From: Streptantibioticus ferralitis
GTDB taxonomy: Bacteria > Actinomycetota > Actinomycetes > Streptomycetales > Streptomycetaceae
Length of the DNA: 64,000 bases
Assembly: GCF_029223525.1 (NCBI RefSeq)
Contig: NZ_JARHTQ010000002.1
Location: forward strand, 248,001 to 312,000
Direction of reading: 5' to 3'
Below the pieces are notes generated by a model. That model worked only from the letters and a program-made list of their open reading frames with translations. It was not told the origin of the DNA and did not search any database. The translations under genes and the position numbers were made by a program. Positions 6,536-37,033 of the stretch are shown here, one piece after another (within the stretch, counting starts at the first letter, position 1; each line of letters begins with the position of its first letter).

Positions 6536-7351
6536 ATGCGCGACGAGCAGCGGAACCGGCGGCCCGAGGCGCGCCGCCCCGGGCCCGGCGACCCGGGGTA
6601 CCCGGCGCAGCGCGCGCCGCGTCTGGCGTCGCTGGCGGAGCTGGACGCCGCGGTGCCCGACTGCCGGGCGTGTCCACGTCTGGTGGAGTGGCGGGAGCAG
6701 GCCGCACGGGTCAAGCGCAGAGCCTTCCGGGACTGGGACTACTGGGCGCGGCCGGTGCCCGGATTCGGGCCGCCGGACGCGGCACTGGCCATCGTCGGGC
6801 TGGCTCCGGCCGCGCACGGCGGCAACCGTACGGGGCGGGTCTTCACCGGTGACCCTTCCGGCGACGTCCTGTACGCGGCGCTGTACGACGTGGGCCTCGC
6901 CTCGCAGCCGACCGTCACCCACCGCGGCGACGGGCTGGAGCTGTACGGGGTGCGGATCACCCTCCCGGTGCACTGCGCACCGCCGCAGAACCGCCCTACC
7001 CCCGCCGAGCGGGACACCTGCCGACCCTGGCTGGCGCGGGAGCTGGAACTGCTGCGGCCGACGCTGCGGGCCGTGGTGGTGCTCGGGGCGTTCGGCTGGC
7101 AGGCGCTGCTGCCGGTGCTCGCCGGCGCGGGCTGGCAGCTGCCCAGGCCCCGTCCGGTGTTCGGCCACGGGGCCCGGGTGCTGCTGCCGGACTCGCGTGG
7201 CGGCCCGGGACTGTATCTGCTCGGCTGCTACCACCCGAGCCAGCGCAATGTGTTCACCGGCAGACTCACCCCCGCCATGCTCCGCGAGACGCTGCGGGAG
7301 GGCGCCGAACTCGCCGGTCTGCGCCAGCCCCCGGCCGCCGACCGTCGCTGA
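6536..7351 (+). CDS. udgB: Family 5 (type B) uracil-DNA glycosylase
   Basis: Base-excision repair enzyme that removes uracil and hypoxanthine from DNA, common in GC-rich actinobacteria and thermophiles. Cys residues for a [4Fe-4S] cluster are visible in DCRACPRL near residue 44 and later in VHCAPPQNRP and DTCRPW. The family motif GLAPAAHGGNRTGRVFTGD contains the uracil-binding loop and lacks the catalytic Asp/Asn of family 1, as expected for UdgB. C-terminal GCYHPSQRNVFTGRLT is the DNA-intercalation motif. Its 271 residues are typical. The start ATG at 6536 has GGGAGG just upstream. It follows the lipoprotein gene by 20 bases. Confidence 0.88.
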   Translation: MRDEQRNRRPEARRPGPGDPGYPAQRAPRLASLAELDAAVPDCRACPRLVEWREQAARVKRRAFRDWDYWARPVPGFGPPDAALAIVGLAPAAHGGNRTGRVFTGDPSGDVLYAALYDVGLASQPTVTHRGDGLELYGVRITLPVHCAPPQNRPTPAERDTCRPWLARELELLRPTLRAVVVLGAFGWQALLPVLAGAGWQLPRPRPVFGHGARVLLPDSRGGPGLYLLGCYHPSQRNVFTGRLTPAMLRETLREGAELAGLRQPPAADRR

Positions 7352-7430
7352 CGCCCCGTGCCGCGGGCCCGCCGCTGCCGGACGGCACGCCCGACATGCG
7401 CCGTACGCCGACCTGGCGGATGGTGAGCAT

Positions 7431-7718
7431 ATGAACCAGCATCACCACCACCATGGCTCCTCAAGGGCGCTCGACATCGACACCCGCCTGGTCACGGCCG
7501 GAGCGATGCTCACGATGTGCGGCTCACTGGTGGCGTTCGCCGGTGTGGCACTCGTCGGTGTCGCGGTGGTCAATGCCGGGCGGCGGTGGGTACGGCGGAT
7601 GGAGGTGCCGCCGGGCGAACTGGCGGCGGCCAAGCTGCGCCAGGCCAAGCAGGCGTCCCTGGCGGGAATGCAGGCGTGGCAGGCGGCATCGGGCGACGGC
7701 GGTAGGTCGGCCCAGTAG
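7431..7718 (+). CDS. Small His-rich membrane protein, unknown function
   Basis: 95 residues beginning MNQHHHHHGSS, then an amphipathic stretch and one strong transmembrane helix (AGAMLTMCGSLVAFAGVALVGVAVV) near residues 22-46, followed by a basic cytosolic tail rich in Arg, Lys and Gln. The five consecutive His near the N-terminus are native sequence, not an obvious vector tag, since the reading frame and codon bias continue naturally. Its start is ATG 7431 with a weak GGTGAG upstream. No family recognised; a metal-linked or envelope role is only a guess. Confidence 0.6.
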   Translation: MNQHHHHHGSSRALDIDTRLVTAGAMLTMCGSLVAFAGVALVGVAVVNAGRRWVRRMEVPPGELAAAKLRQAKQASLAGMQAWQAASGDGGRSAQ

Positions 7719-7781
7719 CGGGACGGGCGGTCCGGTCGGCCCGCCCGGCGCCCGCGTCTCACGCCGTGCTTCAATCGCCGG

Positions 7782-8441
7782 ATGATTGATCTTGTCGAGC
7801 TGCGCGTGTTCATCGGACCTGACGGGCGTGGCGGAAATCCGCTCGGCGTCGTGACCGACGGTGCTCAGGTCCCGGGCACCGCCGACCGGCAGCGGCTGGC
7901 CACCCAACTCGGCTTCAGCGAGACCGTGTTCATCGACGATGTCATACGTGGCGCGGTCGACATCTACACCCCCAGCGCCCAGCTGGCTTTCGCGGGGCAC
8001 CCGCTGGTCGGCACCTCGTGGCTGATGCGGGAGCGCGGGCAGGCGGCTGAGGTGCTGCGTCCGGCGGCGGGGGAGGTACGGACCTGGGCGGAGGACGATT
8101 TCACCTGGATCCGCGGGCGCGCGCAATGGGCTTCCGGGCGGCGTACGCACCAGTACGCCACGGCGGCCGAGGTGGACGCGCTGCCCGCACCGCCACCGGG
8201 TACGGGATGGCTGTACGCCTGGGCCTGGCTGGACGAGGCGGCCGGACAGGTCAGGGCCCGGGCGTTTCCGCGGCGCGGGGACAACATCGTGGAGGACGAG
8301 GCGACGGGCGCCGCCGCCGTCGTCCTCACCGGCGAACTGGGCCGTCCGCTGGACATCCGGCAGGGCGCCGCCTCACAGATCCTCACCCGGGTGCATCCCG
8401 GCGGCTGGATCGACGTCGGTGGCCGCGTCGCCCGGTCCTGA
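7782..8441 (+). CDS. PhzF-family (phenazine biosynthesis-like) isomerase-fold protein
   Basis: 219 residues, shorter than the usual 260-300 of PhzF proteins, with family motifs GRGGNPLGVV, LGFSETVFI, LAFAGHPLVGTSW and EDEATGAAAVVL in the expected order. The Glu of the SET/SETVF motif is the catalytic acid in PhzF and is kept. The shortening falls in the middle, where the domain-swap region is reduced. ATG 7782 is the only good start. Stand-alone, with a strong bidirectional hairpin after the stop. Substrate unknown; no phenazine genes are nearby, so a housekeeping or detoxification role is likelier than antibiotic synthesis. Confidence 0.8.
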   Translation: MIDLVELRVFIGPDGRGGNPLGVVTDGAQVPGTADRQRLATQLGFSETVFIDDVIRGAVDIYTPSAQLAFAGHPLVGTSWLMRERGQAAEVLRPAAGEVRTWAEDDFTWIRGRAQWASGRRTHQYATAAEVDALPAPPPGTGWLYAWAWLDEAAGQVRARAFPRRGDNIVEDEATGAAAVVLTGELGRPLDIRQGAASQILTRVHPGGWIDVGGRVARS

Positions 8442-11051: not shown

Positions 11052-12532
11052 CAACTCCACTCCTCGGTATCGGAGTTCGGGATCCGCTCGGGCGGGGCGG
11101 CCAACTCGCCCAGCCTGATCGGCTGGGCGATCGGCCGTCGGTGCGGGCTGGCCGCCGGCAGCCCCTGGACCTGGCGTCCGGCGGCCTCGCCGGACAGCCG
11201 CTCGGTCAGCTCGGCGACCGTCGGTCCGCAGACCCGTGCCTGGCAGGGGCCGAGTCCGGCGCGGGTGCGCAGCCTGATGACGCGGGGATCGGCACCGGCC
11301 TGGCCGGTGGCGGCCCGGCGCAGTGCGTCGTAATCCGTCTCCTCGCAGCGGCAGATGACCGTCCGCGGTCGCAACCACCCCGGCCACTGGCCGCCGATGG
11401 GGTGTGCCCGGGCCAACCGCCGGGCGAACGCCCGCCCTTGGTCACGGCTGCGGCGCAGCGCGAGCAGGGCGGGCAGCCGGGAGTCACCGCCTCCGGCCAC
11501 CCATCCGGCGAGCGCGCCCTCGGCCCGCGCGGCCTGGGCCCCGGCGATCCCGGTGATCTCCCCTGCGGCGTACACCCCGGGACAACTGGTGCGCTGGTCG
11601 CGGTCGACGGCCACGAACTCGCCGGATGACACGGCGCGCAGTGCGCAACCCGCGGCCACGGCGAGTTCCAACCGCGGGCTGAAGCCGTGGGTGACGCACA
11701 GCGCGTCCACCGGTACGGTCCGCTCGCTGCCGGGCACCACCGACCAGTCGGCGCGCAGCCGCGCGATGACCACTTCCTCGACCTGGTCCGCACCCCGCGC
11801 CTCGATCACGGTACGGCCGGTACGGTACGGCACACGGTGGCCCGCCAAGTCGGCCGCGTACTCGACGAGTTCGGGAAGCTTCGCGGCCTGGGCGGGCAGT
11901 TCCCATGGGCGCCGCAGCCAGCCGCGCGCCACGGTGGCCGCCGGATTGGCCTCGAGCACCTCCAGCACCCGTGATCCCGCCTCGAGGAGTGACCCGGCCA
12001 CAGGGAGCAGGAACGGCCCGGTGCCCGCGACCACCACCCGGTCGCCGACCACTACCCGCTCGCCCTTCGCCAAGGCCTGTGCGGCTCCGGCGGTGAACAC
12101 TCCGGGCAACTCCCAGCCGGGGAACGGCAGTACCCGGTCATGCGCGCCGACCGCGAGCACCAGTGCCCCGGGCTCCAGCACATGACGGCTGCGTCCGCCG
12201 CCGTCGGCGGGGCCGCGCAGCAGATGGACCCTCGGCGGACCCGGCGTTCCGGGGTCCGGGCGCTCCAGCGCCCACACGGCGGTCCGCGGCCACCAAGCAC
12301 AGCGCGGATGGGCCAGCACCCGCCGACGGCGGCGGTCGAAGGCGTTCCAGCCGTGCTGGAGGCGTTCCGGGTGCGTGGCCGCGTAGGGCTCCGGCAGCAT
12401 CCGGTGGTACTGGCCGCCGGGCTGCTCCTCGCTGTCGATCAGGGTCACCCGGGCGCCCGCGCCCAGCGCGGCCTCGGCTGCCGCGAGACCCGCGGGTCCC
12501 GCGCCGATGACGGCGACATGGCGGCGCGTCAT
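11051..12532 (-). CDS. FAD/NAD(P)-binding subunit of a D-hydroxyproline dehydrogenase (HcnB/LhpF-like)
   Basis: 493 residues. The N-terminal dinucleotide fold AVIGAGPAGLAAAEAAL binds FAD; a second fold VVVAGTGPFLLPVA near residue 172 and the ATG motif VYAAGEITGIAGAQAA near 315 complete a two-dinucleotide flavoprotein. The C-terminus has a BFD-like [2Fe-2S] region with Cys in VICRCEETDYDAL and LGPCQARVCGPTVAEL. This is the alpha subunit architecture of heteromeric amine dehydrogenases related to HcnB, octopine/opine and D-hydroxyproline dehydrogenases. It overlaps both neighbours by ATGA (start with the ferredoxin-like gene, stop with the DapA-family gene). Confidence 0.86.
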   Translation of the reverse strand: MTRRHVAVIGAGPAGLAAAEAALGAGARVTLIDSEEQPGGQYHRMLPEPYAATHPERLQHGWNAFDRRRRRVLAHPRCAWWPRTAVWALERPDPGTPGPPRVHLLRGPADGGGRSRHVLEPGALVLAVGAHDRVLPFPGWELPGVFTAGAAQALAKGERVVVGDRVVVAGTGPFLLPVAGSLLEAGSRVLEVLEANPAATVARGWLRRPWELPAQAAKLPELVEYAADLAGHRVPYRTGRTVIEARGADQVEEVVIARLRADWSVVPGSERTVPVDALCVTHGFSPRLELAVAAGCALRAVSSGEFVAVDRDQRTSCPGVYAAGEITGIAGAQAARAEGALAGWVAGGGDSRLPALLALRRSRDQGRAFARRLARAHPIGGQWPGWLRPRTVICRCEETDYDALRRAATGQAGADPRVIRLRTRAGLGPCQARVCGPTVAELTERLSGEAAGRQVQGLPAASPHRRPIAQPIRLGELAAPPERIPNSDTEEWS

Positions 12533-12849
12533 CGGGGCAGCGTCCCCGGCGCGGTCCGGGACTGGGTGGTCACCGCATCACCGTCGCGGGCCGGGCGGCG
12601 GCAGGCGCGGACATCGCGCTCGGCGTTGACCGTCACCAGGCAGTCGAAGCAGACGCCGATCCCGCAGAACACCCCGCGCGCCGCGCCGGAGGGGCCGCGC
12701 CGCCAGGCCAGCCGCCCGGCGGCGAGCAGCACGCCCGCCACGCTCTGGCCGTCGACGCCCTCGACGGTCTCGCCGTCGACGGTGATCCGCAGTGGTCGCT
12801 CGCACCGCCCGACGGCGTCGGTCTCGGCCGGAACACGTCGTGGGCTCAT
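12529..12849 (-). CDS. [2Fe-2S] ferredoxin-like subunit (HcnA/LhpE-like)
   Basis: 106-residue protein of the (2Fe-2S)-binding subunit type. The cluster Cys are in RGVFCGIGVCFDCLVTVN and a final DVRACRRP. In three-component D-hydroxyproline dehydrogenases this small subunit carries electrons between the two flavoproteins. Start and stop both overlap adjacent genes by 4 bases (ATGA), so stoichiometric production is expected. Confidence 0.85.
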   Translation of the reverse strand: MSPRRVPAETDAVGRCERPLRITVDGETVEGVDGQSVAGVLLAAGRLAWRRGPSGAARGVFCGIGVCFDCLVTVNAERDVRACRRPARDGDAVTTQSRTAPGTLPR

Positions 12850-14054
12850 ACCGTCTCCTCACTCGAACCGGGTGTGCCCGGCCCCACCACTGCCGGGCGG
12901 TCCACCCGGAACACGGTCGCGTCGATCCGCGTCGGCCGCCCCAGCACCAGGTCGCGCAGCAGCCGCGCGGTGCCCAGCGACAGACCGATCCCGGCGCCCT
13001 CGTGGCCGGTGGCATGCCACAGGCCGGGCAGCCGTGGATCGGCGCCGATCACCGGCAGATGGTCGGGGACGTAGGGCCGGAAGCCGCCGTACGCGCGCAT
13101 CACGGGGACGTCGGCCAGGCAGGGGAACAGCCGCAGCGCCTTGGCCGCGATCGACGACAGCACCTCGGGGCGCGGCCGGTCGTCGAACCCGGCGTACCGG
13201 CGCGACGAGCCCAGGAGCAGGGTCCCGGCCGGTGTGGACTCCACGACCGCCGAGGTCTGCGACTCCTCGGTACCGCTGCCGACCGCGGCCACGTAGTCGG
13301 CGTCGTAGACCTTGTGGAAGACCGTCGGCGGCAGGGGTGCGGTCACCAGGACATCGCCCCGCCGCGGACGGACGTGCACCGGTACGCCGAGCCGGTCGGC
13401 CAGTTCCGCCGCCCACGGGCCCGCGCAGTTGACGAAGGCATCCGCTTCGATGAGTCCGGCACGGGTGCGCACCGCGGTGAGCCGGCCGCCGCGGACGGCT
13501 GCGCCCAGCACCTCGCATTCGCGCCGCAACCGTGCCCCGGAGGCGAGCGCGTCGGTCAGCAGGGCGACGGCCGCGGCGGCCGGCTGGACCTGGGCGTCCT
13601 GCGGGTAGTACACGGCGGCGGTGTTGTCACGGGTGACGAACGGCTCGGCTTCGGCGAGCGCCGCGGAGTCGAGGACCTCGGCGCGTACCGACGCGGCGCG
13701 CTGCTCGGCGGCGAAGCGGGACAGCCGCCGGGCCCCGGGGTCGGTGGTCGCGATGACGATGCCGCCCTTGGGCTGCCATTCGACCGCCGCCACCGCCTCG
13801 GCGGCTTGGGCGGAGCGCTCGGCGACGGCGGCGAGCACCTCGGGCCACAAGCGCCGGGAGAGCTGGGCCAGTTCGAGTTCCGGGCCGGGGGCCTTGTCGG
13901 AGACCAGGATGTTGCCCTCGCCGTGCGAGGTGGTGGCGGCCGCCGCGCCACCGCGGTCGACTACGGTGACGTCGAACCCGGCGAGGGCCAGTTCGCGAGC
14001 GCAGGCGGCGCCGATGATCCCGGCGCCCAGAACCGCCACCCGCGTTCCCCGCAT
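12846..14054 (-). CDS. FAD-dependent D-amino-acid (D-hydroxyproline) dehydrogenase subunit, DadA-like
   Basis: 402 residues of the DAO/DadA fold: N-terminal FAD motif VAVLGAGIIGAACARELAL, substrate region YYPQDAQVQP typical of DadA-type enzymes near residue 165, and C-terminal YGGFRPYVPDHLPVIG followed by ATGHEGAGIGLSLGTARLL closing the FAD site. Expected to oxidise cis-4-hydroxy-D-proline to 1-pyrroline-4-hydroxy-2-carboxylate. First gene of the operon, with GAGGAGG at 14061-14067 as ribosome binding site, immediately preceded by an operator-like palindrome. Promoter control by the XRE-cupin regulator upstream is likely. Confidence 0.87.
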   Translation of the reverse strand: MRGTRVAVLGAGIIGAACARELALAGFDVTVVDRGGAAAATTSHGEGNILVSDKAPGPELELAQLSRRLWPEVLAAVAERSAQAAEAVAAVEWQPKGGIVIATTDPGARRLSRFAAEQRAASVRAEVLDSAALAEAEPFVTRDNTAAVYYPQDAQVQPAAAAVALLTDALASGARLRRECEVLGAAVRGGRLTAVRTRAGLIEADAFVNCAGPWAAELADRLGVPVHVRPRRGDVLVTAPLPPTVFHKVYDADYVAAVGSGTEESQTSAVVESTPAGTLLLGSSRRYAGFDDRPRPEVLSSIAAKALRLFPCLADVPVMRAYGGFRPYVPDHLPVIGADPRLPGLWHATGHEGAGIGLSLGTARLLRDLVLGRPTRIDATVFRVDRPAVVGPGTPGSSEETV

Positions 14055-21762: not shown

Positions 21763-22518
21763 TCAGGAAGCGGGGGACCACTCACCGATGCGCACCACGG
21801 CAAGCGTGATGTTGTCCGGGCCGCCCGCCTCGATCGCCGCCTTCCACAGCTCGAAGGCCGCTCGGCCGTCCTCGTACTCGCGCAGCAGGCGCTCGAGCAC
21901 GTCATCGGGCACCGGATCGGTCAGACCGTCGGTACACACCAGATAGCGGGCGTCCTCGGTCAGCGGGTGACGCAGGACGTGCGGATGGACTTCGCTGAAC
22001 TCAATGGTGCCGCCGAGCGTCTGGGTGACGATGGGTGTGGTGCGCTGCCCCGGAGCCAGCGGTGGATTGTCGTCCACACTGAGCTGACGCAGCCCGTCCT
22101 GGCCGATGTGGAAGACCCGGCTGTCGCCGACGTTGAAGGCGAGGACAGACTCCGGCAGTACGACGACACCCGCGACCGTGGTGCCCATGGTGAGCAGGTC
22201 GGGGTTGGCCTCGGCGGCCGCGTACACATCGTGGTTGCAGGCGTTCAGGGCTTCGCGGACGGCCGACTCGGTGTCGAGCGCACGGCCGACCCTGGACAGC
22301 CGGCGGACGGTCAGCGCGCTGGCCACCTCACCCCCCGGCTGCCCGCCGAGACCGTCGGCGACCGCTACGGCCAGCGGCGTGCCGAACGGGAACAGCAGGG
22401 TCTGCGGGTTGTCGGTCACGGTGCCACACAGCGTCCACGGCCCGACCGCCAGGCTGTCCTCGTTGTGCTCCCGCACCAGTCCGACGTGGCTCAACGCGCT
22501 CACCGCGATGTAGGCCAT
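21763..22518 (-). CDS. PP2C-family Ser/Thr protein phosphatase
   Basis: 251 residues of a stand-alone PPM/PP2C catalytic domain: LSHVGLVREHNEDSLAVG (motif 1 with Asp for metal), AVADGLGGQPGGEVAS (motif 2), MGTTVAGVVVL, FNVGDSRVFHIG, VCTDGLTDPV and GGPDNITLAVV (last metal Asp). All metal-coordinating Asp are kept, so it should be active. Cytosolic, no membrane anchor, so not the PstP cell-division phosphatase. Likely reverses Hanks-type kinase phosphorylation; the kinase partner is not in the window. Confidence 0.9.
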   Translation of the reverse strand: MAYIAVSALSHVGLVREHNEDSLAVGPWTLCGTVTDNPQTLLFPFGTPLAVAVADGLGGQPGGEVASALTVRRLSRVGRALDTESAVREALNACNHDVYAAAEANPDLLTMGTTVAGVVVLPESVLAFNVGDSRVFHIGQDGLRQLSVDDNPPLAPGQRTTPIVTQTLGGTIEFSEVHPHVLRHPLTEDARYLVCTDGLTDPVPDDVLERLLREYEDGRAAFELWKAAIEAGGPDNITLAVVRIGEWSPAS

Positions 22519-22698
22519 GACGGCTCGCCTCCCGTCCCGGCAGGCGTACTGCCCTCTGTCCCATTGTCGCGCCCAGCCCGACGGTGTGCGCAGTGTTCGG
22601 GCCGTCCGTGCCGACCGCGCTTCACCTGCGAGCTCACCGCAGGTACGCGCTGACCGCTGGAAAGCGCCGACGCGAAGCGGCCACCGCGCGGCGCTGGG

Positions 22699-22870
22699 TC
22701 AGGGCAGTTGTGCGGACTGGGCGTGCCGGAAGACGTTCTTCGGGTCCCACTTCGCCTTCGCCCGGCGCAGACGGGCATGGTTGTCCTTGTGGCAGAGCGT
22801 CGACCACGGCACTTTCGAGGTGTTCCACTCGGCGTCGCCGAGGTCGGTGTCCTCCCTGCCTGCTCGGGCG
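22699..22870 (-). pseudogene. Remnant of an FAD-linked (BBE-domain) oxidoreductase
   Basis: The minus strand encodes only the C-terminal end of a berberine-bridge-type oxidoreductase: DLGDAEWNTSKVPWSTLCHK, then DNHARLRRAKAKWDPKNVFR and HAQSAQLP before TGA at 22699-22701. The WDPxNVF block is the family's closing motif. No N-terminal FAD domain is present upstream and there is no usable start, so this is a decayed 3' fragment. Confidence 0.75.
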
Positions 22871-22953
22871 TCTCGGAGCGCTCAGGGGCAGGCCTGCCCG
22901 GGCACCGCCCGCGGCACCGACGTGGCGAAGGCTCAACTGCCCGTCGGCTGGCG

Positions 22954-23655
22954 TCACTTGTGGAATGCCGGCGACAAAAGTGCGTACCCCAGCAGTCCGA
23001 AGGTCGCGACTGACATGAGCGGGACCAGGAACTTGGTTTCGACGCTGTTGCCGCTGCTCTTTATCAGGACGATCTCGTAGCGCTGCTTATGTGGCCACAG
23101 CAGCGGTGCACCCATCTTGGTGAGGCAGTCGCCGATGAGATGGGCGAGGGTGCCCAGTGCCACGGTGTACGGGAGCCAGACCGGAGCGCTCGGCATGAAG
23201 CGGTCGAGCACGAAGGTGCCGGCGACCGCGAGGACCATCACGGTGAGCCACGTGTGGTGACCGCGGCCGGGCCAGTGCGCGTGCAGTGCCTTGAGCGCCA
23301 GCGCAAGGAGGACGAAGGTGGTACCCAGGGTGAAGTCGCGTCCCAGGTAGGTGATTCCCGCCCAGGTCCCGCCGCCGACGAGCGCGGTGAACAGCAGCGA
23401 GTGGGTGGCGTGCCGGTGCCCGCCGGAGATCCAGGCCACGATGCGGCACAGCGCTTTGGAGAGCGGACCGAGGAAGTTTGCGATCGTCCCGTCGTGGTGG
23501 TCGAGATCGGGCAGCAGCGCGGCGCCGGCGCACAGGATGGTGCCCAACACGATGTCAGCGGGTTTGAGATGGGTGTGCAACAGCAGCGGCGGAAGGAAGG
23601 GCGCGGCGCCCGCGTACAGCATCGCTCCGCTGACGGCGTGTGAGTGACCCATCAT
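22954..23655 (-). CDS. DUF457/YdjM-type membrane-bound metal-dependent hydrolase
   Basis: 233-residue inner-membrane protein with five or so hydrophobic helices. Polar motifs characteristic of DUF457 are visible: MGHSHAVSGAMLY at the N-terminus, LLPDLDHHDGTIANF near residue 50, GGHRHATHSLLF near residue 78 and LAHLIGDCLTKMGAPLLWP near 170; these His/Asp residues would bind a metal. In E. coli the relative YdjM is an SOS-induced membrane protein. Two adjacent ATG codons (23655, 23652) are possible starts. It lies at the edge of an accessory patch. Confidence 0.85.
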   Translation of the reverse strand: MMGHSHAVSGAMLYAGAAPFLPPLLLHTHLKPADIVLGTILCAGAALLPDLDHHDGTIANFLGPLSKALCRIVAWISGGHRHATHSLLFTALVGGGTWAGITYLGRDFTLGTTFVLLALALKALHAHWPGRGHHTWLTVMVLAVAGTFVLDRFMPSAPVWLPYTVALGTLAHLIGDCLTKMGAPLLWPHKQRYEIVLIKSSGNSVETKFLVPLMSVATFGLLGYALLSPAFHK

Positions 23656-24120
23656 GGTTGGTTCTCAACCCCCGTTGACCGTCTGAGATGCCGGCCTGGT
23701 CAGGCCGCCCGCTTCGGTGAGCGCGGATGACGTTATCAGCAGAGGCTGGCACAGGATTCGGGGGCGGCCATCCCGTCTGACACCGACCCAGGCGGAGCCA
23801 AGCAGCCTTGGCACCCAGGGGCGAGCTCGCTTCACGTTCGTATGGGTCGATGGCAGACGGGATGGCAGCCAGGACCCGAACTGGTCGTCCAGGGGCGCGG
23901 GGAGTGCGGCGCCGGCCAGTTGGCCCAGGCCGGCGGGGATGGGCGATGATGAGCGGGTAGGCACGGTCTTCCGTCGTGAGGATCAGGGACGCGACACCTC
24001 ATGATCACCGGAAGCCATGCCTACCTCCGACTCACCGCCGGACAGCCGACCACGAAACATCGCGATCCACCCGATCGCCTGTCAACCGGATAGAGCGCGA
24101 GAACCACGACGCCCTGGGCG
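23656..24120. other. Intergenic region without a recognisable gene
   Basis: Frames of about 95 codons are open here on both strands (23665-23964 minus, 23717-24004 plus), but neither has a convincing ribosome binding site, codon bias or family resemblance. It lies in the accessory patch and may be decayed coding DNA. Confidence 0.4.
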
Positions 24121-24591
24121 TTACTCCACGTGTCCGTACCAGACATGGGCCGTCCAGATGCGCTCAAGGCGGACACGTGAGCCAGCCCTGGAGGCATGCC
24201 AGATCCTGTCGTGCCCGGCATAGATGCCAACGTGGTAGATGCTGCTTCCGTGGTGGAAGAAGACCAGGTCACCGGGGGCACGAGAGGCGGCAGCGACATG
24301 ATGTGTGCGGGAATACTGAGCGGTTGCGGTCCGTGGCAGTAGCCTGCCTGCCGCGCGGAACGCGTACAGGGTCAGCCCGGAGCAGTCGAATCGGGACGGC
24401 CCGGCGGCGCCGTACTCATACGGTGATCCCTGCTTGGATGCTGCCACCTCCAAGGCCCGCCTGGCCACAGTCGTTCCTATGGCTTGGGAAGGAAGGCTGG
24501 GAACGAGGGCGCCCGCGGTGAGAGCTGCAGCGGCGAGGATCGACGTTGCCTCTGGCCGGGAGAACAGGGCGGATGCAAACCGAACAGTCAT
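24121..24591 (-). CDS. Secreted NlpC/P60-family endopeptidase
   Basis: 156 residues from ATG 24591. The N-terminal hydrophobic segment (ATSILAAAALTAGALVPSLPSQA) is a signal peptide, followed by a compact NlpC/P60 domain: SPYEYGAAGPSRFDCSGLTL with catalytic Cys, APGDLVFFHHGSSIYHVGIYAG with catalytic His and a C-terminal HVWYGHVE. Catalytic Cys, His and a third polar residue (His) are present. It should cut the D-Glu-diaminopimelate bond of peptidoglycan stem peptides. It has no wall-binding or coiled-coil domain and is therefore a minimal enzyme. Confidence 0.88.
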   Translation of the reverse strand: MTVRFASALFSRPEATSILAAAALTAGALVPSLPSQAIGTTVARRALEVAASKQGSPYEYGAAGPSRFDCSGLTLYAFRAAGRLLPRTATAQYSRTHHVAAASRAPGDLVFFHHGSSIYHVGIYAGHDRIWHASRAGSRVRLERIWTAHVWYGHVE

Positions 24592-25096
24592 GCACACCCC
24601 TATCGTTTGCCTGCGAAGGATGGCCTGTCCGGGGTCGGGCAGGCCATGATGCCCGGCCACGGCTGCGGTTCCATCCCAAAGGGCTGTCCTGCGGTCTCGG
24701 GAGGCGCACTGTGATCGGGCCCTTCGTTCCTGCCGTTTCTGTGGTGTCGACCTTGCGTCCGAGTGCCGACAGGACTCGGCGTACCCCGGACCGCCCCGCC
24801 GTAGGGACGGGGAATGTCAGCAGGGATGATTGCGCACGAATGCGACCGTTGCCAATCGTAATGAACGAGGGTGTCGTAATCTGTGTGGCCCCAATTGCCC
24901 CGCAATGTAGGTAAGTTGAGGTCGCACAATTGTGTCGGCCCGGTCTGTGCAAGTAGCGCGGTAAAACCCTCGGATGGCGCATATCAGGTCGCACGGCAGC
25001 CCCGGGACGGTATCGGCGGTGACGGCGCCTGCAGATCACCTTCTTCAACTTCCGTACCTTGTCAGAGGCGGTAAGCCCAACCCTTGCTTGTGAAGG
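24592..25096. other. Intergenic, AT-richer region; no gene recognised
   Basis: About 500 bases between the divergent NlpC/P60 and Nudix genes. The stretch 24830-24950 is notably AT-rich for this genome and may be a promoter region or Lsr2 target. The two gene-proximal ends share a related 20-base motif (24604-24623 and 25084-25103, 15 of 20 identical). Confidence 0.4.
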
Positions 25097-25490
25097 GTGG
25101 GCGTCCGCAGCCCCCTTGCAGGCATTGTCCTCGATGGCCGTGTCCTGCTGCTCCGCCGGGCGGTCGCGGAGGGTGCCCTGCTGTGGGCGTTCCCCGCGGG
25201 CAAGGTCGAGGCCGGGGAGTCTCCCGAACCGGCTGCTGTCCGTGAGGCGTTGGAGGAGACCGGGCTGGTCGTGGAGGCGCTGCGGGTGCTGGGCGGCCTG
25301 GTACATCCGGCGACGGGGCGTCGGATGGTGTACGTGGCCTGCCGGGTGGTCTCAGACACGGCCTGTGTGGGGTCGCCGCGGGAGGTGGCGGAGGTGGCCT
25401 GGGCCGACCGCGTACAGCTCGCAGAGCGCTGGGGTGTTCGGGCCTGTGCGGGGGTATCTCGACGAGGCATTGGGTGGGGGTGTGGGCTGA
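25097..25490 (+). pseudogene. Nudix hydrolase with a +1 frameshift in a G tract
   Basis: From GTG 25097 the protein has a complete Nudix box GKVEAGESPEPAAVREALEE followed by TGLV, the magnesium-binding helix of nucleoside-diphosphate hydrolases. After residue 112 the reading frame gives unnatural sequence, while the next frame gives VFGPVRGYLDEALGGGVG and stops at 25488-25490, a normal Nudix tail. Removing one G from the run 25431-25434 restores a protein of about 130 residues. A strong terminator hairpin starts 10 bases after 25490, supporting that stop as the original end. Substrate unknown. Could be a sequencing error. Confidence 0.72.
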
Positions 25491-25499
25491 CGGTCCGAT

Positions 25500-25523
25500 G
25501 TCCGGGCGCCAAAGCGCCCGGAC
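25500..25523. terminator. Bidirectional terminator hairpin
   Basis: Perfect 10-bp stem (25500-25509 with 25514-25523) and a CAAA loop, lying between the Nudix stop at 25490 and the convergent profilin stop at 25546. Confidence 0.85.
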
Positions 25524-25545
25524 GTTGTGTGCGGGCTCCGTGGTG

Positions 25546-25938
25546 TCAGTAGTTTGATTGCTTCAGGTAGTCAGCCGTGCTTTCGATGGCCGTTCGTGCC
25601 TGGGCAGCTTCGGAGGACTGGCCCTCGAAGAGGGCGACGATGATGGTCTGGTTGGTTGAGGTGGCGAAAACGCCCTTGGTGCCGGCCTTGCCGAAGATGA
25701 GGTTTTCGTCGACGCGCGGGACGATGTATTTGGTTCCGGCGACGGTGACGCCGGTGGCAGGGACGCCGTTCAGGTCGGTGAATGCTTTGGAGAGGGCGGT
25801 GCATTCGTCGGTGGTGATGGCGAAGTTGTCCGGGAGCTTCCCCCAGAGGCTGCCGTCTGTTTTGCCGATGATGGCTCCCTGCTTGATCGCGTCAGCGTTG
25901 TCCATCATGTTCTTCACGTAGTCCGCCCAGCCTGACAT
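25546..25938 (-). CDS. Profilin-family protein (eukaryote-type fold in a bacterium)
   Basis: 130 residues, the length of eukaryotic profilins, and aligned to them end to end by eye. The N-terminus MSGWADYVKNMM matches the MSWQxYVD start; GAIIGKTDGSLWGK matches AAIIGxDGSVWAQ; VTVAGTKYIVPRVDENLIFGKAG matches the GTKYMxxxGxxxxxIxGKKG block; NQTIIVALFEG matches xQAIIVGxY; ADYLKQSNY is the C-terminal helix. All five aromatic poly-proline-groove positions are kept (Trp4, Tyr7, Trp32, Tyr124, Tyr130), as is the Gly-Lys (84) of the actin face. ATG 25938 has AGGGAGGG upstream. No signal peptide. Codon use is adapted (about one codon in six ends in A/T), so any transfer is not recent. No actin gene is near; partner unknown. 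Confidence 0.85.
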   Translation of the reverse strand: MSGWADYVKNMMDNADAIKQGAIIGKTDGSLWGKLPDNFAITTDECTALSKAFTDLNGVPATGVTVAGTKYIVPRVDENLIFGKAGTKGVFATSTNQTIIVALFEGQSSEAAQARTAIESTADYLKQSNY

Positions 25939-26141
25939 GGCCGTTCCCTCCCTTGGTCCCGTCCGACGCGGGACTGCGGCGTGATCATGGCACAAGGCGA
26001 GTGCCGCCCCGGCGTGCTACGTCGCGATCTGGCCAAGGTCTACGGGGGGCTATCGGTGTAGAGCACCGGCCCGCGGTCCGGGCCGGTCCGGGCGTACCTC
26101 GGTGGGGTGCCGCGGGAGTTGTGGCGGTGAATTGGAGTCGC

Positions 26142-26384
26142 TCAGCCGCGAGGGATCGGTTGGCCGCCTACGAGGATGATCTGGGCTGAGCCTGTTTGCC
26201 AGCCCAGTGCTTCCTCGATGTGTTCGATTGCCCTTGGGAGGCGCGCGAGTTCGCGGCCACTCTCAAGGCCTTGGACGGTGGCAGGGGACACGCAGGCGAG
26301 CAGGGCGAGTTCGTGCCGGGTGAGGCCCTTCTCTTCGCGGGCGGCGAGAATCGCGTCGGCTAGGAGGTTCCAGTCCCTGTCCAT
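26142..26384 (-). CDS. Small XRE-family HTH protein
   Basis: 80 residues from ATG 26384 (GTG 26390 is an alternative). A single HTH_3 domain: LADAILAAREEKGLTRHELA, then LLACVSPATVQGLESGRELA, and a short tail ALGWQTGSAQIILVGG. This truncated type is common in Streptomyces accessory regions. It lies 203 bases upstream of the profilin gene on the same strand and could regulate or be co-transcribed with it; no effector domain is present. Confidence 0.75.
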   Translation of the reverse strand: MDRDWNLLADAILAAREEKGLTRHELALLACVSPATVQGLESGRELARLPRAIEHIEEALGWQTGSAQIILVGGQPIPRG

Positions 26385-26447
26385 GGGCACATGATGCCGG
26401 AGCTGACCCGGTTGGATGGCGGGGTCTGCGGAGCGTGAGCGTGTGGT

Positions 26448-26474
26448 GCACCGGCCCGGGTGTCGGGCCGGTGC
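26448..26474. terminator. Hairpin, probable terminator
   Basis: Perfect 11-bp stem GCACCGGCCCG (26448-26458) with CGGGCCGGTGC (26464-26474), loop of 5. It lies between the start of the XRE gene and the phosphoesterase 3' end and could terminate the latter, 200 bases downstream of its stop. Confidence 0.6.
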
Positions 26475-26676
26475 GTGCCGGAGTCAGGGCTGGCGTCCTG
26501 CCCGTCGTTTGGCTGCTACCCCGGCGGCGACGCTGCTGCCCGCAGCGCCGGATGACGCCACTGGCACCCACATCGAGCACCGCACCCTGGACGAGGTCCA
26601 CGCCTGCCTCCGCTGCGGCAACCGCGCACGGCTGGCGTGGGTCGGCCGGTGGACCGGCCGAACCCGCTGGCGGGTG

Positions 26677-28419
26677 TCAGCCTTGCGGCTTGGCCAGGAG
26701 CAGTTCGGTGTTGTGGTCCGCCGGTGTGCCGATCTTCTTGGCCGGGGTGGCGTACGGGTCGTTGTAGGACAACTCGCGGTAGAGCGCGGCCAGTCCGGCG
26801 TCCGAGGTGTCGCCGAAGTCGGTCGCGTAGCGGGCGGCCGACTCCACGAGGGTGGTGAACAGCGACAGTGTGCCGTCGCCGTTGTCGGCGATCTCGATGA
26901 TCCGCGCGTGCTGCGGGTAGTCGATGTGCGAGGCGGTGTTGATCTCCCAGAAGGCGCGCTCGGGCACCGCGTGGCCGTGGGCGATGATCTGGTTCTGGTG
27001 GGTGTGGCCGTTCACCCAGGCGACGACGTTGGGGTAGCGCTGCAGCAGTGCCACAAGGGCGTTGCCGTCGTGGCGCCCTTCGAACGGGTTGTACGGGTCG
27101 GGCAGCAGATTACCCATGGACCCGCTGGTGTGGTGGCTGAAGATGACGATCAGCTCGTTGGACTGACCGCCGCGCACCGGGTGGCCGTCGGTGTCGTACC
27201 AGTGGTTGCTGTGCGACTGGAGCACCGACTCCAGCCAGTTCAACTGCGCGGTGCCGAGGGAGCCGTCGGCGAATCCGGCCCGGTTGGTGGTGTCCAGGCT
27301 GATGCCCAGGACACCGTCCGAGACCGGGAACGTGTAGTACAGCCGCCCGCTGTCGGCGGCGGACGAGGTGAAACCGTGGCCCACGGGACCCGGACCGGTG
27401 TAGGCGGGGTTGAGATGGGCCCGGGCGAACTCCTTGGGCGTGAACGGCAGACGCCGCGGATCGGACGTCACCTGGCGCACCGGACCGCCTTCGCCCAGCA
27501 GCCGGGCGAGCAGCGCGACCGCCTTCGCCGGATCGTTGCGCAGGGCGTCGGCCAGCGCGGCGGCGTCGGCGTCGTCACACCCTTCGAGTTTGCGGTCGCC
27601 GGTGTAGAGGGAGTTCAGCAGCCCCAGGTCCGGCAGCGAGCCCTCGATGCTGTCGTCGTGGTTGCCGACCGTGGTGTACCAGGGAGTGCGCAGACCGGGG
27701 GCGGTGAAGGTGCCGCCCGCCGCGGACAGGAAGCCGGGTATCTGGGGGAAGCCGTGCGCCTTGTAGGTGTCCTGGAAGGACGACTCCGGGTTCCAGTACG
27801 CCGAACCACCGGAGTTCTGCACGCCCTCGTAGCGCTTCGGATCGCCGCTGTTCGGGGTGATCGCACCGCCGCTCATCACGGACAGATACCAGTCGAGTTC
27901 GATCTGCTCGTGGTTGTCGGTGTTGTCACCTGTCGCCATGACCAGGGAGAACGGTGTGCCGGTGAAAGGGCCGCCGGACAGCGAGTTGATCCGCTCCACC
28001 AGGGCGGAGGCACCGCGTACCGTCAGCGCCTCGTGCGGGCGGTGCGCGCTGTCCAGGTACTGGGCGAGGTACTCGAACCGTACCGGGGACTCGGTGTCCA
28101 CCAGGTGCAGGTCGGTGAACTGTACGAACGAGGCCAGTGCGGTGCGCCGGTCATCGCGCGCAGCCCCCGCCGCGGCGAGATCGGTGCGCACCACGAGCGG
28201 CCAACCGGGTCCGGACTGAAGCCGCTTGTATGCTCCGCCGCCGGTCGGTGTGGCGACCTGTTCGAGCGTGGTGCCCGCGGTGCGGACGGCTCGGGTGGCG
28301 GTGGTGGCGAGGGCGCGATCGCGCGTCGCGGCGGACGCGAACGGGCCGTAGCTCAGGGCCAGGGCCGCTGCCGCGGCCGAAGCGCCGGTGATGAACTGGC
28401 GTCTGCTGTATGCGGGCAT
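26677..28419 (-). CDS. Tat-exported metallophosphoesterase (TIGR03767-type)
   Basis: 580 residues. The Tat signal YSRRQFITGASAAAAALAL is at residues 4-22. The calcineurin-type metal motifs appear in order: FTDLHLVD, ATGDNTDNHEQ, TTVGNHDDSIEG, IFSHHTSGSMG and NGHTHQNQII. Length and motif spacing match the actinobacterial TIGR03767 phosphoesterase group. Expected to hydrolyse phosphate esters outside the cell. ATG 28419 follows AGGAGA. Preceded by a 182-base gap from the ABC exporter; single transcription unit. Confidence 0.87.
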   Translation of the reverse strand: MPAYSRRQFITGASAAAAALALSYGPFASAATRDRALATTATRAVRTAGTTLEQVATPTGGGAYKRLQSGPGWPLVVRTDLAAAGAARDDRRTALASFVQFTDLHLVDTESPVRFEYLAQYLDSAHRPHEALTVRGASALVERINSLSGGPFTGTPFSLVMATGDNTDNHEQIELDWYLSVMSGGAITPNSGDPKRYEGVQNSGGSAYWNPESSFQDTYKAHGFPQIPGFLSAAGGTFTAPGLRTPWYTTVGNHDDSIEGSLPDLGLLNSLYTGDRKLEGCDDADAAALADALRNDPAKAVALLARLLGEGGPVRQVTSDPRRLPFTPKEFARAHLNPAYTGPGPVGHGFTSSAADSGRLYYTFPVSDGVLGISLDTTNRAGFADGSLGTAQLNWLESVLQSHSNHWYDTDGHPVRGGQSNELIVIFSHHTSGSMGNLLPDPYNPFEGRHDGNALVALLQRYPNVVAWVNGHTHQNQIIAHGHAVPERAFWEINTASHIDYPQHARIIEIADNGDGTLSLFTTLVESAARYATDFGDTSDAGLAALYRELSYNDPYATPAKKIGTPADHNTELLLAKPQG

Positions 28420-28601
28420 GCCGCGTTCTCCTGACGGTCGATCGGGACAACTCCATGCGCGCGGGTCGCCCGAGCACCCCCTTGGCCCCGGCGCCGGGCT
28501 ACCAGCAAGTAACGCGCCGTCGGACAGCATGCCTGAACGATGTTGGTTGTCCTGTGAACAACCGGCGAAGTATTGGTGAGGAATCGTCGTCCGATCGGCC
28601 C

Positions 28602-30518
28602 TCAGGAGACCTCGTTCGCCGGGGCGGACGTCCTGCGCGAGGTGGGGACACCGCGGTCGTTCTGCAGCGACCACAGATCCCGGAACAGGCCCGGCACGGC
28701 GACGAGTTCGGCGAACGTGCCCTGCTGGATGACGCGGCCGTGGTCGAGGACCACGATCCGGTCGGCGATGGTCACGTTGGTCAGCCGGTGGGTTACCAGC
28801 ACGACCGCCCGGTCCGCGGCGATGTCGCGCAGACCGGAGAAGACCCGGTGTTCGGCTCGCGCGTCGAGCGCGGCCGTCGGTTCGTCCATGACCAGCAGCC
28901 CGGCGGGCCGGTGGAACGCGCGGGCGAGCGCGATGCGTTGCCACTGGCCGCCGGAGAGCTCTTCGCCGCCGAGCCACTCCCGCGCCAGCAGGGTGCGCAG
29001 GCCGTAGCGGAGACCGCTGACCACCTCGTGGGCGCCGCTGGCCTCGCACGCTTCCCACACCGCGGCGTCACCGTGCGCCGCGGGCTGCCCGAGGGTGATG
29101 TTCTGGCGTGCCGACAGCGGCCAGCGCGCGTACTCCTGCGGCACCACGGCGACACGTTCCCACGCGGCGATCGGATCCACTTCCCGGGTGTCCACCCCGT
29201 CCCAGCGGACCACACCGGACGTGGGCAGGTAGAGCCCGGTGAGCAGCTTGGACAAGGTGGTCTTCCCGGAGCCGTTCTCGCCCACCAGCGCCAGCACCTC
29301 GCCCCGGCGAACCGTCAGCGTGACACCGTCCACCGCGTTGCGGTCCGCACCCTCGTACCGGTACACGAGGTTGTCCGCCCGGACCTCCCGCGGCTCCGTG
29401 GGCAGCGCCTCACCGCGCCGCAGGCGGTAGCCGCCGGCCTCGTCCAGGAACTGCGACCAGTCCTCCACGTACATCCCGGTACGGAACATCCGAGCGCCGC
29501 CGCCGACCAGGCTCTGCACCGACGAGGTGACGGTGCGCAGGGCGAAGATCGCCGTACCGGCCGATGCCACCGACATCCGCCCGGTGGCGAGCAGCAGCAT
29601 CAGTGCCGCCCACACCAGGCTCGACGCCAGACCACCCGCCGCCGCGCCGAGCAGGGCGGTACGGGCGCCCTTGCCGACGGCCCGCCGTTCCGAGGCGTTC
29701 ACCCGGTCGGTGATCCGCCGGTACTTGCCGAGCAGGAAGCCCGCCATGGTGCCGGAACGGATCTGGTCTGCGGCGTGGGTGTCCGCCATGTGCCAGCGCA
29801 GGACCGACAGCATCCGGCGGTGGCCCACCATCTCCATGGCCGCCAGATAACTGATCCGTGCGCTGCGCACCTGCGCCAGCCCCTGCGGAAGTCCCGCCAG
29901 GAACAGCAGCGGCAGCAGGACGGGGTGCAACGCGGTGAGCACGCCCGCTCCGGCGATCAGTGAGGCGGTCGCGGAGAGCAGGTCCTGGCCTTCCTGGATG
30001 AGGTCCTGCGACACCTGCGCGCCGCGCTCCGCCGCCTCCCTGCGGTCGTTGAAGCCGGGGCTGTCGTATGCGGCGAGTTCCACATTGACCGCCGCGTCCA
30101 GCAGCATCAGTTCGGCTTCCTGGGACATCAGCGGGGCCAGCCGGGAGGACAGCCAGGTGACCGCGATGCCGAGCACCGCCCGCAGTCCGGCCGCCGCCGC
30201 CAGCACCGCCAGCGAGGGCCAGGCCGCCCACAGCCGTTCGGCGATCCGGCCGGAGGAGATGAGCGCCGTGATCGTCCCGGTGGTGGCGAGCAGCCCGAAC
30301 GCCTGCGACACACCCGAGACGACCTGGCAGACCAGCAGCCCGAGGACCGAGGCCCGGTCCGCGCGCCAGGCCAACGCCAGTGAACGGCGGACCAGTTGCG
30401 GAAGCTTGCGTGCCATCTGCCGTGTGGTGATGGACTTTCCGGCCTTCCAGCGCTGGTCGTCGTCGCGCTGGAAGTCCAGTTCCTCGTCAGATTGCGCTGG
30501 AACAGTGGTTTCGACCAT
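28602..30518 (-). CDS. ABC exporter, fused membrane and ATPase domains
   Basis: 638 residues. Six transmembrane helices fill about residues 40-340, then the ATPase: Walker A LVGENGSGKTTLSKLL, Q loop VVPQEYARWPL, signature LSGGQWQRIALARAF, Walker B LLVMDEPTAALDARAEH, H loop VLVTHRL. The layout is that of a type IV exporter half that works as a homodimer. Substrate not predictable (lipid, peptide or drug). ATG 30518 is used; ATG 30530 four codons upstream is an alternative. No accessory gene adjoins it. Confidence 0.87.
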   Translation of the reverse strand: MVETTVPAQSDEELDFQRDDDQRWKAGKSITTRQMARKLPQLVRRSLALAWRADRASVLGLLVCQVVSGVSQAFGLLATTGTITALISSGRIAERLWAAWPSLAVLAAAAGLRAVLGIAVTWLSSRLAPLMSQEAELMLLDAAVNVELAAYDSPGFNDRREAAERGAQVSQDLIQEGQDLLSATASLIAGAGVLTALHPVLLPLLFLAGLPQGLAQVRSARISYLAAMEMVGHRRMLSVLRWHMADTHAADQIRSGTMAGFLLGKYRRITDRVNASERRAVGKGARTALLGAAAGGLASSLVWAALMLLLATGRMSVASAGTAIFALRTVTSSVQSLVGGGARMFRTGMYVEDWSQFLDEAGGYRLRRGEALPTEPREVRADNLVYRYEGADRNAVDGVTLTVRRGEVLALVGENGSGKTTLSKLLTGLYLPTSGVVRWDGVDTREVDPIAAWERVAVVPQEYARWPLSARQNITLGQPAAHGDAAVWEACEASGAHEVVSGLRYGLRTLLAREWLGGEELSGGQWQRIALARAFHRPAGLLVMDEPTAALDARAEHRVFSGLRDIAADRAVVLVTHRLTNVTIADRIVVLDHGRVIQQGTFAELVAVPGLFRDLWSLQNDRGVPTSRRTSAPANEVS

Positions 30519-30713
30519 GGCGCCCCCCATTCAGGTCGGGGTGCTTCACCCGACGGGATGGCCGGACGCTATTGGGGACGGCCGATGCCGTGTCGGTCGT
30601 TCGCCGGAAGAACGCCCGATCGAGTGGGGGCGCGTGGTGGCCCTTTCAACGGTGGGGGGACCGCTGGCGCGAGCCACCGGTGGCAGCGGCGAAGCGGCCC
30701 GCGCCGTGCGGCG

Positions 30714-30826: not shown

Positions 30827-31258
30827 TTAGAAGAAACCGCCGTCATCGTCCGAGACGTCCTCGTAGACGTCCGTGTTCTCGTAGTAGTTGTTCTCGATGA
30901 CGGTGCGCGGCTCGTCGTCCTCCAGCATCTCGCCGATGAGCGCGCCGCCCACCAGGCCCGCCACGCCCGCGCCCACCACGGCGGCGGTGCTGTGGCCGGG
31001 GCGCTGCTGCGGATAGCCGGGCTGGGCGTACCCGGGCTGGGCGTACCCGGGCTGCGGGTATCCGGCCTGCGGGTAGCCCGCCTGCTGCGGGTACCCGGCC
31101 TGGGGCGCGCCCTGCGGCATGTAGTACGGCGGGGGTGTGGTCTGCACACGCTGGGCGCAGGGACCGCAGGCCTGGATGGGGCGGGCCACGCCCCACTGCG
31201 GCGACCACATCACGCTCACACTGCCCGGCGCGTGCGCGGAGTCGAAGAAGCAAGTCAC
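30827..31258 (-). CDS. Pro/Gly/Tyr-rich repeat protein with a glycine-zipper segment
   Basis: 143 residues from GTG 31258. N-terminal 45 residues hold a Cys pair (QACGPCAQR); the middle is a degenerate tandem repeat of the type GYPQ(A/P) or GYAQP (about ten units, preceded by TTPPPYYMPQG); then a Gly-rich hydrophobic helix (AAVVGAGVAGLVGGALIGEML) and a very acidic tail (LEDDEPRTVIENNYYENTDV). It lacks a signal peptide, so it might be a membrane-tethered low-complexity scaffold. The long opposite-strand frame over phosphoketolase in the same phase is a shadow. Function unknown; its PPP and PQ repeats are the best poly-proline-like candidates in the window. Confidence 0.65.
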   Translation of the reverse strand: MTCFFDSAHAPGSVSVMWSPQWGVARPIQACGPCAQRVQTTPPPYYMPQGAPQAGYPQQAGYPQAGYPQPGYAQPGYAQPGYPQQRPGHSTAAVVGAGVAGLVGGALIGEMLEDDEPRTVIENNYYENTDVYEDVSDDDGGFF

Positions 31259-36604: not shown

Positions 36605-37033
36605 ATGAACCACGTGGTAGAGCGACGCCAGAAGAGGCCCTTCGCACTTCAGGACGTGTTCGACTGGTTCGAGACCGGCCTGCCCGGAATCCACGCGCCG
36701 GGCATGCACGGCATCCGGATCGAGGAGCGGACCACCGACGACGCGTACGTCGTGCGTGCCGAACTGCCGGGGATCGATCCGGACAAGGATGTGGAGATCA
36801 CGGTGGACAACGGAGTCCTCACGCTGCGCGCCGAGCGCACGGAGCGCACCGAGGACGTACGGCACTCCGAGATCCGGTACGGGTCGTTCTCCCGTGCCCT
36901 GCGGCTGCCACCGGGCGCGCGCGCCGACGAGGCCGCCGCGTCCTACAAGGACGGCATGCTGACCATCACCATCCCCGTGTCGGAGAAGCAGGCCAGCACC
37001 AAGAAGATCACCGTCAAGCACGAGGGGTCCTGA
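36605..37033 (+). CDS. Hsp20/alpha-crystallin small heat-shock protein
   Basis: 142 residues. The alpha-crystallin domain runs from about residue 35 to 130 (YVVRAELPGIDPDKDVEITVDNGVLTLRAER, SFSRALRLPPGARADEAAASYKDGMLTITIP), and the IXI-like C-terminal anchor is represented by SEKQASTKKITVKHEGS. GGGAG precedes ATG 36605. An ATP-independent holdase, homologous to Hsp20 proteins of DevR-type regulons (mycobacterial Acr/HspX). Its position between GH65 and pncB agrees with the dormancy regulon. Confidence 0.93.
   Translation: MNHVVERRQKRPFALQDVFDWFETGLPGIHAPGMHGIRIEERTTDDAYVVRAELPGIDPDKDVEITVDNGVLTLRAERTERTEDVRHSEIRYGSFSRALRLPPGARADEAAASYKDGMLTITIPVSEKQASTKKITVKHEGS

Follow-up and report, generated by a model that had tools for sequence, protein, structure and literature searches.

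A stretch of 64,000 nucleotides from the chromosome of the actinomycete Streptantibioticus ferralitis (contig NZ_JARHTQ010000002.1, positions 248,001 to 312,000; hereafter the window) carries, at window positions 25546-25938 on the minus strand, a complete gene for profilin, i.e., a protein that controls actin in plants, fungi and animals and is highly characteristic of the actin system of eukaryotes. The sequence comparisons presented here make it reasonably probable that this resident gene is of eukaryotic descent, spreads as a cassette and is used without actin.

An intact profilin gene

The gene comprises 130 codons and a stop codon, with its ATG at 25938 lying inside a larger open reading frame (ORF; 25546..25995, minus strand); the frame is intact, and the plus-strand reading of 25546-25938 is interrupted by stops. 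An initial annotation, made from the sequence alone, had given the same coordinates and a 130-residue product, to which the minus strand is now added, and had recognized by eye a profilin from end to end. This identification is upheld by a match of the product to profile PF00235 (E 3.2e-31; score of 108.5 bits, the curated cut-off being 25 bits) that spans positions 2-127 of the 127 in the model, and the same model returned zero matches in 14 control genomes. No NCBIfam model matched the window profilin. A phmmer search of the PDB at E<=1 returned 36 distinct sequences, 35 of which are named profilin and one of which is the pollen allergen Art v 4.01, with profilin II of Acanthamoeba as the top match (E 1.2e-16). 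Furthermore, when a poor structure model of the window protein, with a predicted local distance difference test score (pLDDT) of 56, was used as the Foldseek query, rows 1-44 were all profilins or profilin allergens and MglB followed at row 45, the top row having a template modelling (TM) score of ~0.73 with this same poor query. The helix-strand order of this model, at that pLDDT, corresponds to the order in profilins.

The stretch AAGGGAGGGAAC, located just 5' of the ATG, is a plausible candidate for the ribosome-binding site proposed initially. The proposed actinobacterial codon use is borne out by the third codon positions, whose GC content is 0.82, but not by the gene as a whole, whose GC content of 0.601 is the lowest among 63 window ORFs (as obtained by our own crude ORF calling) and is equalled or undercut by none of 3181 segments of 393 bp taken in 20-bp steps.

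The two ends of the gene form a direct repeat of 35 bp (25561-25595 and 25912-25946, 77% identical) that encodes the alike stretches ADYVK and ADYLK, and that reflects either chance or an old duplication.

Residence in a variable chromosomal segment

The S. ferralitis genome (8,795,397 bases in 110 contigs, 99.17% complete) contains the window gene as its sole PF00235 match, at ~273.5 kb in a contig of 613 kb. In blastn comparisons, the flanks align with both sampled congeners, designated G001 and G002, for which the alignments end at 22540 and 22526 and resume at 26685 and 26676, respectively, while neither congener has any PF00235 match. The window profilin gene thus has its place in the chromosome of an actinomycete, where a short segment (22541..26675; 4.1 kb, GC content 0.671) that is variable and missing in G001 and G002 lies between congener-shared blocks and contains the gene. 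At the corresponding site, G002 carries ~13.6 kb of other DNA, in which the two ORFs scanned are glycosyltransferase and polysaccharide genes, and G001 carries ~2.8 kb related to the first part of this DNA.

These results, together with the bacterial nature of the neighboring genes, agree with the residence claimed by the initial annotation. Contamination of the assembly with eukaryotic DNA, to which the eukaryote-like product and a GC content that is low for the window might point, is vanishingly improbable: the uninterrupted frame is preceded by a plausible bacterial ribosome-binding site and is embedded in a 613-kb contig with which congeners align on both sides, the upstream stretch recurs with a relative in another genome of the family, and copies are also found in complete plasmid records. 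Contaminant DNA was rejected on account of the contig, the synteny and this relative sharing upstream DNA.

A further stretch of ~6 kb, at 9.1-15.2 kb of the window, is missing from both congeners; because of such additional alignment gaps, the region is regarded as variable as a whole.

Sporadic distribution among actinomycetes

Relatives of the gene were surveyed with PF00235 profile searches, since searching the profilin family with exact peptide patterns is overly strict (a pattern search of genome contigs returned 0 loci with the window protein and 3 with a small alignment). The genome samples overlap and contain 19 genomes with a match in all, that of S. ferralitis included: matches were obtained in 1/3 genomes of the genus, 10/394 of the family, 3/394 of the class and 1/198 of the phylum, as well as in 7/392 genomes of the genus of G249, 3/70 of the genus of G202 and 3/150 of the family of G534; 5/336 relatives of G900 also matched, all five being present in other samples. 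The 18 further genomes, all from actinomycetes, include those of Protofrankia coriariae (G666) and Streptomyces sp. NRRL F-6131 (G202), and one copy is located on the Streptantibioticus cattleyicolor megaplasmid pSCATT (locus L023, genome G007). Beyond these, copies are found on an S. tricolor contig and on two Streptomyces plasmids. The 23 copies considered below thus consist of those of the 19 genomes, a second match in G1239, the S. tricolor copy and two truncated plasmid genes.

The frame is open over the PF00235 match in 14 of the 19 genomes; it is broken in G130, G257, G534 and G900, and the copy of G666 is devoid of its N-terminal part. Furthermore, the second match of G1239 contains a stop, the S. 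tricolor copy has an internal deletion, and the plasmid-borne profilin genes of Streptomyces sp. RLB1-9 and NBC_00513 are truncated. Relatives of the gene have a sporadic distribution within Streptomycetaceae and among the actinomycetes beyond; they reside on plasmids as well as chromosomes, their neighborhoods differ, and several of them are broken. While the gene is clearly resident, the initial suggestion that it is also maintained is uncertain, as 9 of the 23 copies are broken or truncated.

A phage collection yielded zero matches for the window protein or for that of locus L020, as did viral contigs when searched by the pattern method, and a phage origin was rejected because of these results.

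Search for an actin partner

No eukaryote-type actin was found in the S. ferralitis genome, in which PF00022 matches occur in two loci only, both of them MreB_Mbl (464 and 514 bits); the earlier observation that no actin homologue lies nearby is in line with this result. Likewise, no eukaryote-type actin showed in the 18 other profilin genomes, their top actin match being 47.8 bits and the three best, upon examination, being MreB_Mbl (444-457 bits). A eukaryote-type actin partner was rejected on this basis. It is highly improbable that the protein works instead with MreB or Mbl, i.e., with an actin-like bacterial protein made by the same cell. Two MreB_Mbl genes are indeed present and, according to PMC3254629, the profilin of Microcystis binds the actin encoded beside it; however, the MreB/Mbl genes are ordinary ones, in contrast to the sporadic profilin (matches in 10/394 genomes of the family), and MreB is far from eukaryotic actin in sequence.

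Groove residues and selection

The window copy possesses each of the aromatic residues W4, Y7, W32, Y124 and Y130, which form the poly-proline groove of profilins, in alignment with the eukaryotic rows, as well as the Gly-Lys loop (G83-K84), just as the initial annotation had stated. For human profilin, W32 and H134 are named as groove residues in PMC8410842. Among the 17 bacterial rows of the alignment, only the window copy and L049 possess all five aromatics, and in L050 a Phe replaces one of them.

One lineage, represented by G301, G785, G898 and G1050, seems to have discarded the groove and may nevertheless have remained under purifying selection. The ratio of nonsynonymous to synonymous substitution rates (dN/dS), which is a rough measure here since it was computed by NG86 on saturated, GC-rich codons, amounts to 0.23-0.42 for four pairs among L024, L045, L046 and L047, which constitute one clade. 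It is 0.12 (NG86) or 0.07 (YN00) for L026/L027, 0.37 when the window gene is compared with the N-terminal piece of L048 (the G900 copy), and 0.54 for L017/L034.

The groove-less profilin gene of L046 (G1050) is located ~1.5 kb from the gas-vesicle genes GvpO, Gas_vesicle and GvpL/GvpF (11694-13216).

A proposed one-gene cassette

In three pairs of loci, DNA homology is confined to the profilin gene and 100-400 bp of flank, i.e., 944 bp at 87% identity in L026/L027, 561 bp at 81% in L049/L050 and 413 bp at 72% between the window and L048; in two of these pairs there is one extra short match, of 39 or 52 bp. In a shuffle test of the ten best of 91 upstream pairs, conservation beat all 300 shuffles in L026/L027, L049/L050 and window/L048, and weakly in L020/L021, while the other six did not do so. 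In the window, the conserved upstream stretch (25943..26043, minus strand) includes the putative ribosome-binding site and aligns to the upstream DNA of the G900 copy with a local alignment score of 66, reached in 0 of 300 shuffles.

Profilin itself is shared by 16 of the 23 loci, and no other gene is shared by more than five. A conserved partner gene was rejected, as the widest neighbor families are present in only 5 and 4 of the 23 loci. The former is a SpoIIE phosphatase family (one member scanned), and the latter an Hsp20 family (all four scanned) found within ~11 kb of profilin in the window (36605-37030), L024, L034 and L045. Genes for SpoIIE phosphatases and for Hsp20 are both widespread in genomes of this type. 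The initial annotation had suggested a search for homologues with conserved neighbors; profilin proved to be a recurrent accessory gene of actinomycetes, but one with no conserved neighbor among the 23 loci.

The profilins of L026 (9777-10142, G111) and L027 (9803-10168, G087) are of a strongly diverged type (L026 scores 48.6 Pfam bits), with 96% identity between the two genomes in otherwise unlike surroundings.

Origin of the bacterial copies

By score, the nearest relatives of the window protein are Acanthamoeba profilin, with 32% identity over 122 residues, and the broken G900 copy, with 59% over 64 residues for its N-terminal piece and 31% over 87 for the other piece. The top PDB match of L020 is likewise an Acanthamoeba profilin (E 5.5e-32), while that of L049 is an S. 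pombe chain (E 1.5e-29, versus 1.5e-22 for Acanthamoeba), so that some copies are closest to profilins of amoebae and others to those of fungi. A tree of 17 bacterial and six eukaryotic rows, from which the L048 pieces were left out, requires three label changes, and forcing the bacteria into one clade costs 19.2 log units, with an approximately unbiased test P value (p-AU) of 0.03. The scatter of related copies, some of them broken, over other actinomycetes suggests that bacteria took profilin from eukaryotes, perhaps repeatedly. The proposal of the initial annotation that the window gene had been transferred is well supported by its patchy presence (matches in 10/394 genomes of the family), by a segment that has no counterpart in the two congeners, and by the unlike neighborhoods of its relatives. 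A fuller scenario, which is entirely possible if short of probable, comprises several captures from amoeba-like and fungus-like donors, one-gene-cassette spread and actin-free use, with profilin being a module kept for ligand binding alone and the groove-less lineage remaining under apparent purifying selection.

Possible function

A eukaryotic profilin is proposed as the ancestor of the gene, with capture having probably taken place more than once in actinomycetes; accompanied by its upstream region, the gene would spread as a one-gene cassette via plasmids and recombination. Its product may be a small cytoplasmic adaptor, the intact aromatic groove of which would, with no actin partner involved, bind bacterial proteins at their proline-rich segments, and which would confer a conditional and dispensable advantage; an advantage of this kind would explain why profilin is often lost. 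Taken alone, this mechanism of an actin-free cytoplasmic binder that is beneficial under certain conditions is put forward tentatively. It is favored for the window copy because all five groove aromatics are kept and no eukaryote-type actin was found. The re-use for binding proline-rich proteins that the initial annotation had considered would be compatible with this intact groove.

A number of observations weigh against the proposed descent, cassette spread and actin-free use. The structure model of the window protein, derived from a four-row alignment, is of low confidence (pLDDT 56.3, predicted TM score 0.45). One or more groove aromatics are absent from 14 of the 17 bacterial rows by substitution, deletion or truncation, and the nearest relative, that of G900, is broken by frameshift and has neither W32 nor Y124; since most relatives have lost one or more groove residues, poly-proline binding cannot be the shared reason for retention of the gene. 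In addition, dN/dS is 1.08 between the window gene and the C-terminal piece of L048, 0.91 for L020/L021 and 0.73 or 0.43 for L049/L050; given this spread among pairs, apparent constraint is limited to some of the lineages. Not every copy is isolated, as L024, L045 and L046 have other DNA in common within 10 kb. Finally, the window row has no supported place in the profilin tree, and the hint that a single bacterial clade is disfavored is a weak one, with a marginal p-AU, six eukaryotic rows and long branches.

The main rival explanation is that the gene is a passenger, i.e., a eukaryotic gene caught by chance that has little or no expression, no selected function and is decaying. Such a passenger would be consistent with the 9 of 23 broken or truncated copies, a GC content that is the lowest of the 63 called ORFs, dN/dS values near 1 in some comparisons, the lack of a conserved neighbor among the 23 loci and the lack of a detectable sigma-70-like promoter at 25400-26700. 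It is nevertheless considered unlikely, in view of the unbroken frame over the match in 14 of 19 genomes, the dN/dS values of 0.07-0.42 in two lineages, the upstream region that divergent copies have conserved, and the retention of all groove residues by the window copy.

The initial annotation had also raised the possibility of a mimic acting on eukaryotic cells, in which case the protein would reach amoebae, fungi or animal cells and disturb their actin or formins. The product is eukaryote-like with groove and Gly-Lys loop intact, and soil is a meeting place of actinomycetes with amoebae and fungi. However, no positive support emerged for such an effector: the protein start, MSGWADYV, bears by eye no signal peptide, the ten scanned neighbors include no secretion genes, and no conserved secretion partner is present among the 23 loci, all of which renders this role improbable.

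Neighboring features

Within the variable segment, the profilin gene is convergent with a NUDIX gene (25097..25552, plus strand; 70.1 bits), the 3' ends of the two genes overlapping, while a small helix-turn-helix gene (26142..26390, minus; HTH_3, 32.7 bits) lies 203 bp upstream of profilin. The segment also contains an NlpC/P60 gene (24121..24660, minus; NLPC_P60, 83.5 bits) and a gene for a YdjM-type membrane protein (22954..23655, minus; YdjM, 82.7 bits). The last conserved gene on the left encodes a PP2C-type phosphatase (21763..22518, minus; PP2C_2, 54.1 bits) and has ~87% identity to G001 and G002, and the conserved block on the right (26677..30530, minus; 86% identity to the congeners) holds genes of the metallophosphatase (Metallophos, 26.4 bits) and ABC transporter (ABC_tran, 98.9 bits) kinds. 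No terminator or sigma-70-like promoter was found in 25400-26700, no convincing direct repeats bound the 4.1-kb segment, and a role as defense gene was rejected, a PADLOC search having returned no match for profilin. In the conserved flank, 5 kb from profilin, a frame (~30830-31250, minus) has at its end GYPQ/GYAQP repeats, rich in Pro, Tyr and Gln, that do not amount to a poly-proline tract.

On pSCATT (L023), the profilin gene adjoins a set of genes for a small GTPase-like and a Roadblock/LC7 protein (6780-8126), to which, judged by eye, two cytochrome P450 genes and one for a sensor-like protein also belong; this set presumably resembles the 'conservons' of Streptomyces.

Relation to known profilins

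The profilins I and II of Acanthamoeba castellanii (PDB 1acf, 2acg and 1f2k), which provide the best PDB and Foldseek rows, correspond to the window protein in family, length and groove residues, but are only ~32% identical to it and work with the actin of their own cell, no eukaryote-type actin being found in this bacterium. In a 2009 paper (PMC2651865) no prokaryotic profilin orthologues are listed, and in 2012 the Microcystis profilin, held to be horizontally transferred, was called the sole prokaryotic profilin known (PMC3254629). This Microcystis aeruginosa protein, PfnM, which accompanies ActM, is, like the window gene product, a eukaryote-type profilin in a bacterium; according to the same paper, however, it is 84% identical to a eukaryotic profilin and encoded beside an actin gene, whereas the window protein is ~32% identical to its best match and no actin was found. 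Asgard profilins were described later, as PMC8410842 and PMC12050087 indicate. Those of Loki, Odin and Heimdall are, like the window protein, prokaryotic, and the window protein probably shares their fold, with Odin and Loki profilins at Foldseek rows 35, 36, 40, 42 and 47, but in these rows the identity to the window protein is only 13-18%, and Asgard genomes have actin homologues (PMC8410842).

Closer to the present organism, two Streptomyces plasmid genes, WP_164331309.1 ('profilin') and WP_332881096.1 ('profilin family protein'), belong by automatic annotation to the same protein family and stem from the same bacterial family, but are truncated, with 114 and 65 codons as annotated, whereas the window gene is complete with 130; WP_164331309.1 has 32.6% identity to the window protein over 69% of the latter. 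As public plasmid records label these two genes profilin, the family call itself is not new, while a description of the distribution, cassette behavior and lack of actin of actinomycete profilins was not found in the open-access literature searched. The sole published bacterial profilin case found, that of Microcystis, came with its own actin. Likely transfer of a eukaryotic gene into bacteria is rarely seen in replicate, as it is with actinomycete profilins; being free-standing and without detected eukaryote-type actin, these also constitute natural experiments on the function of profilin minus actin.
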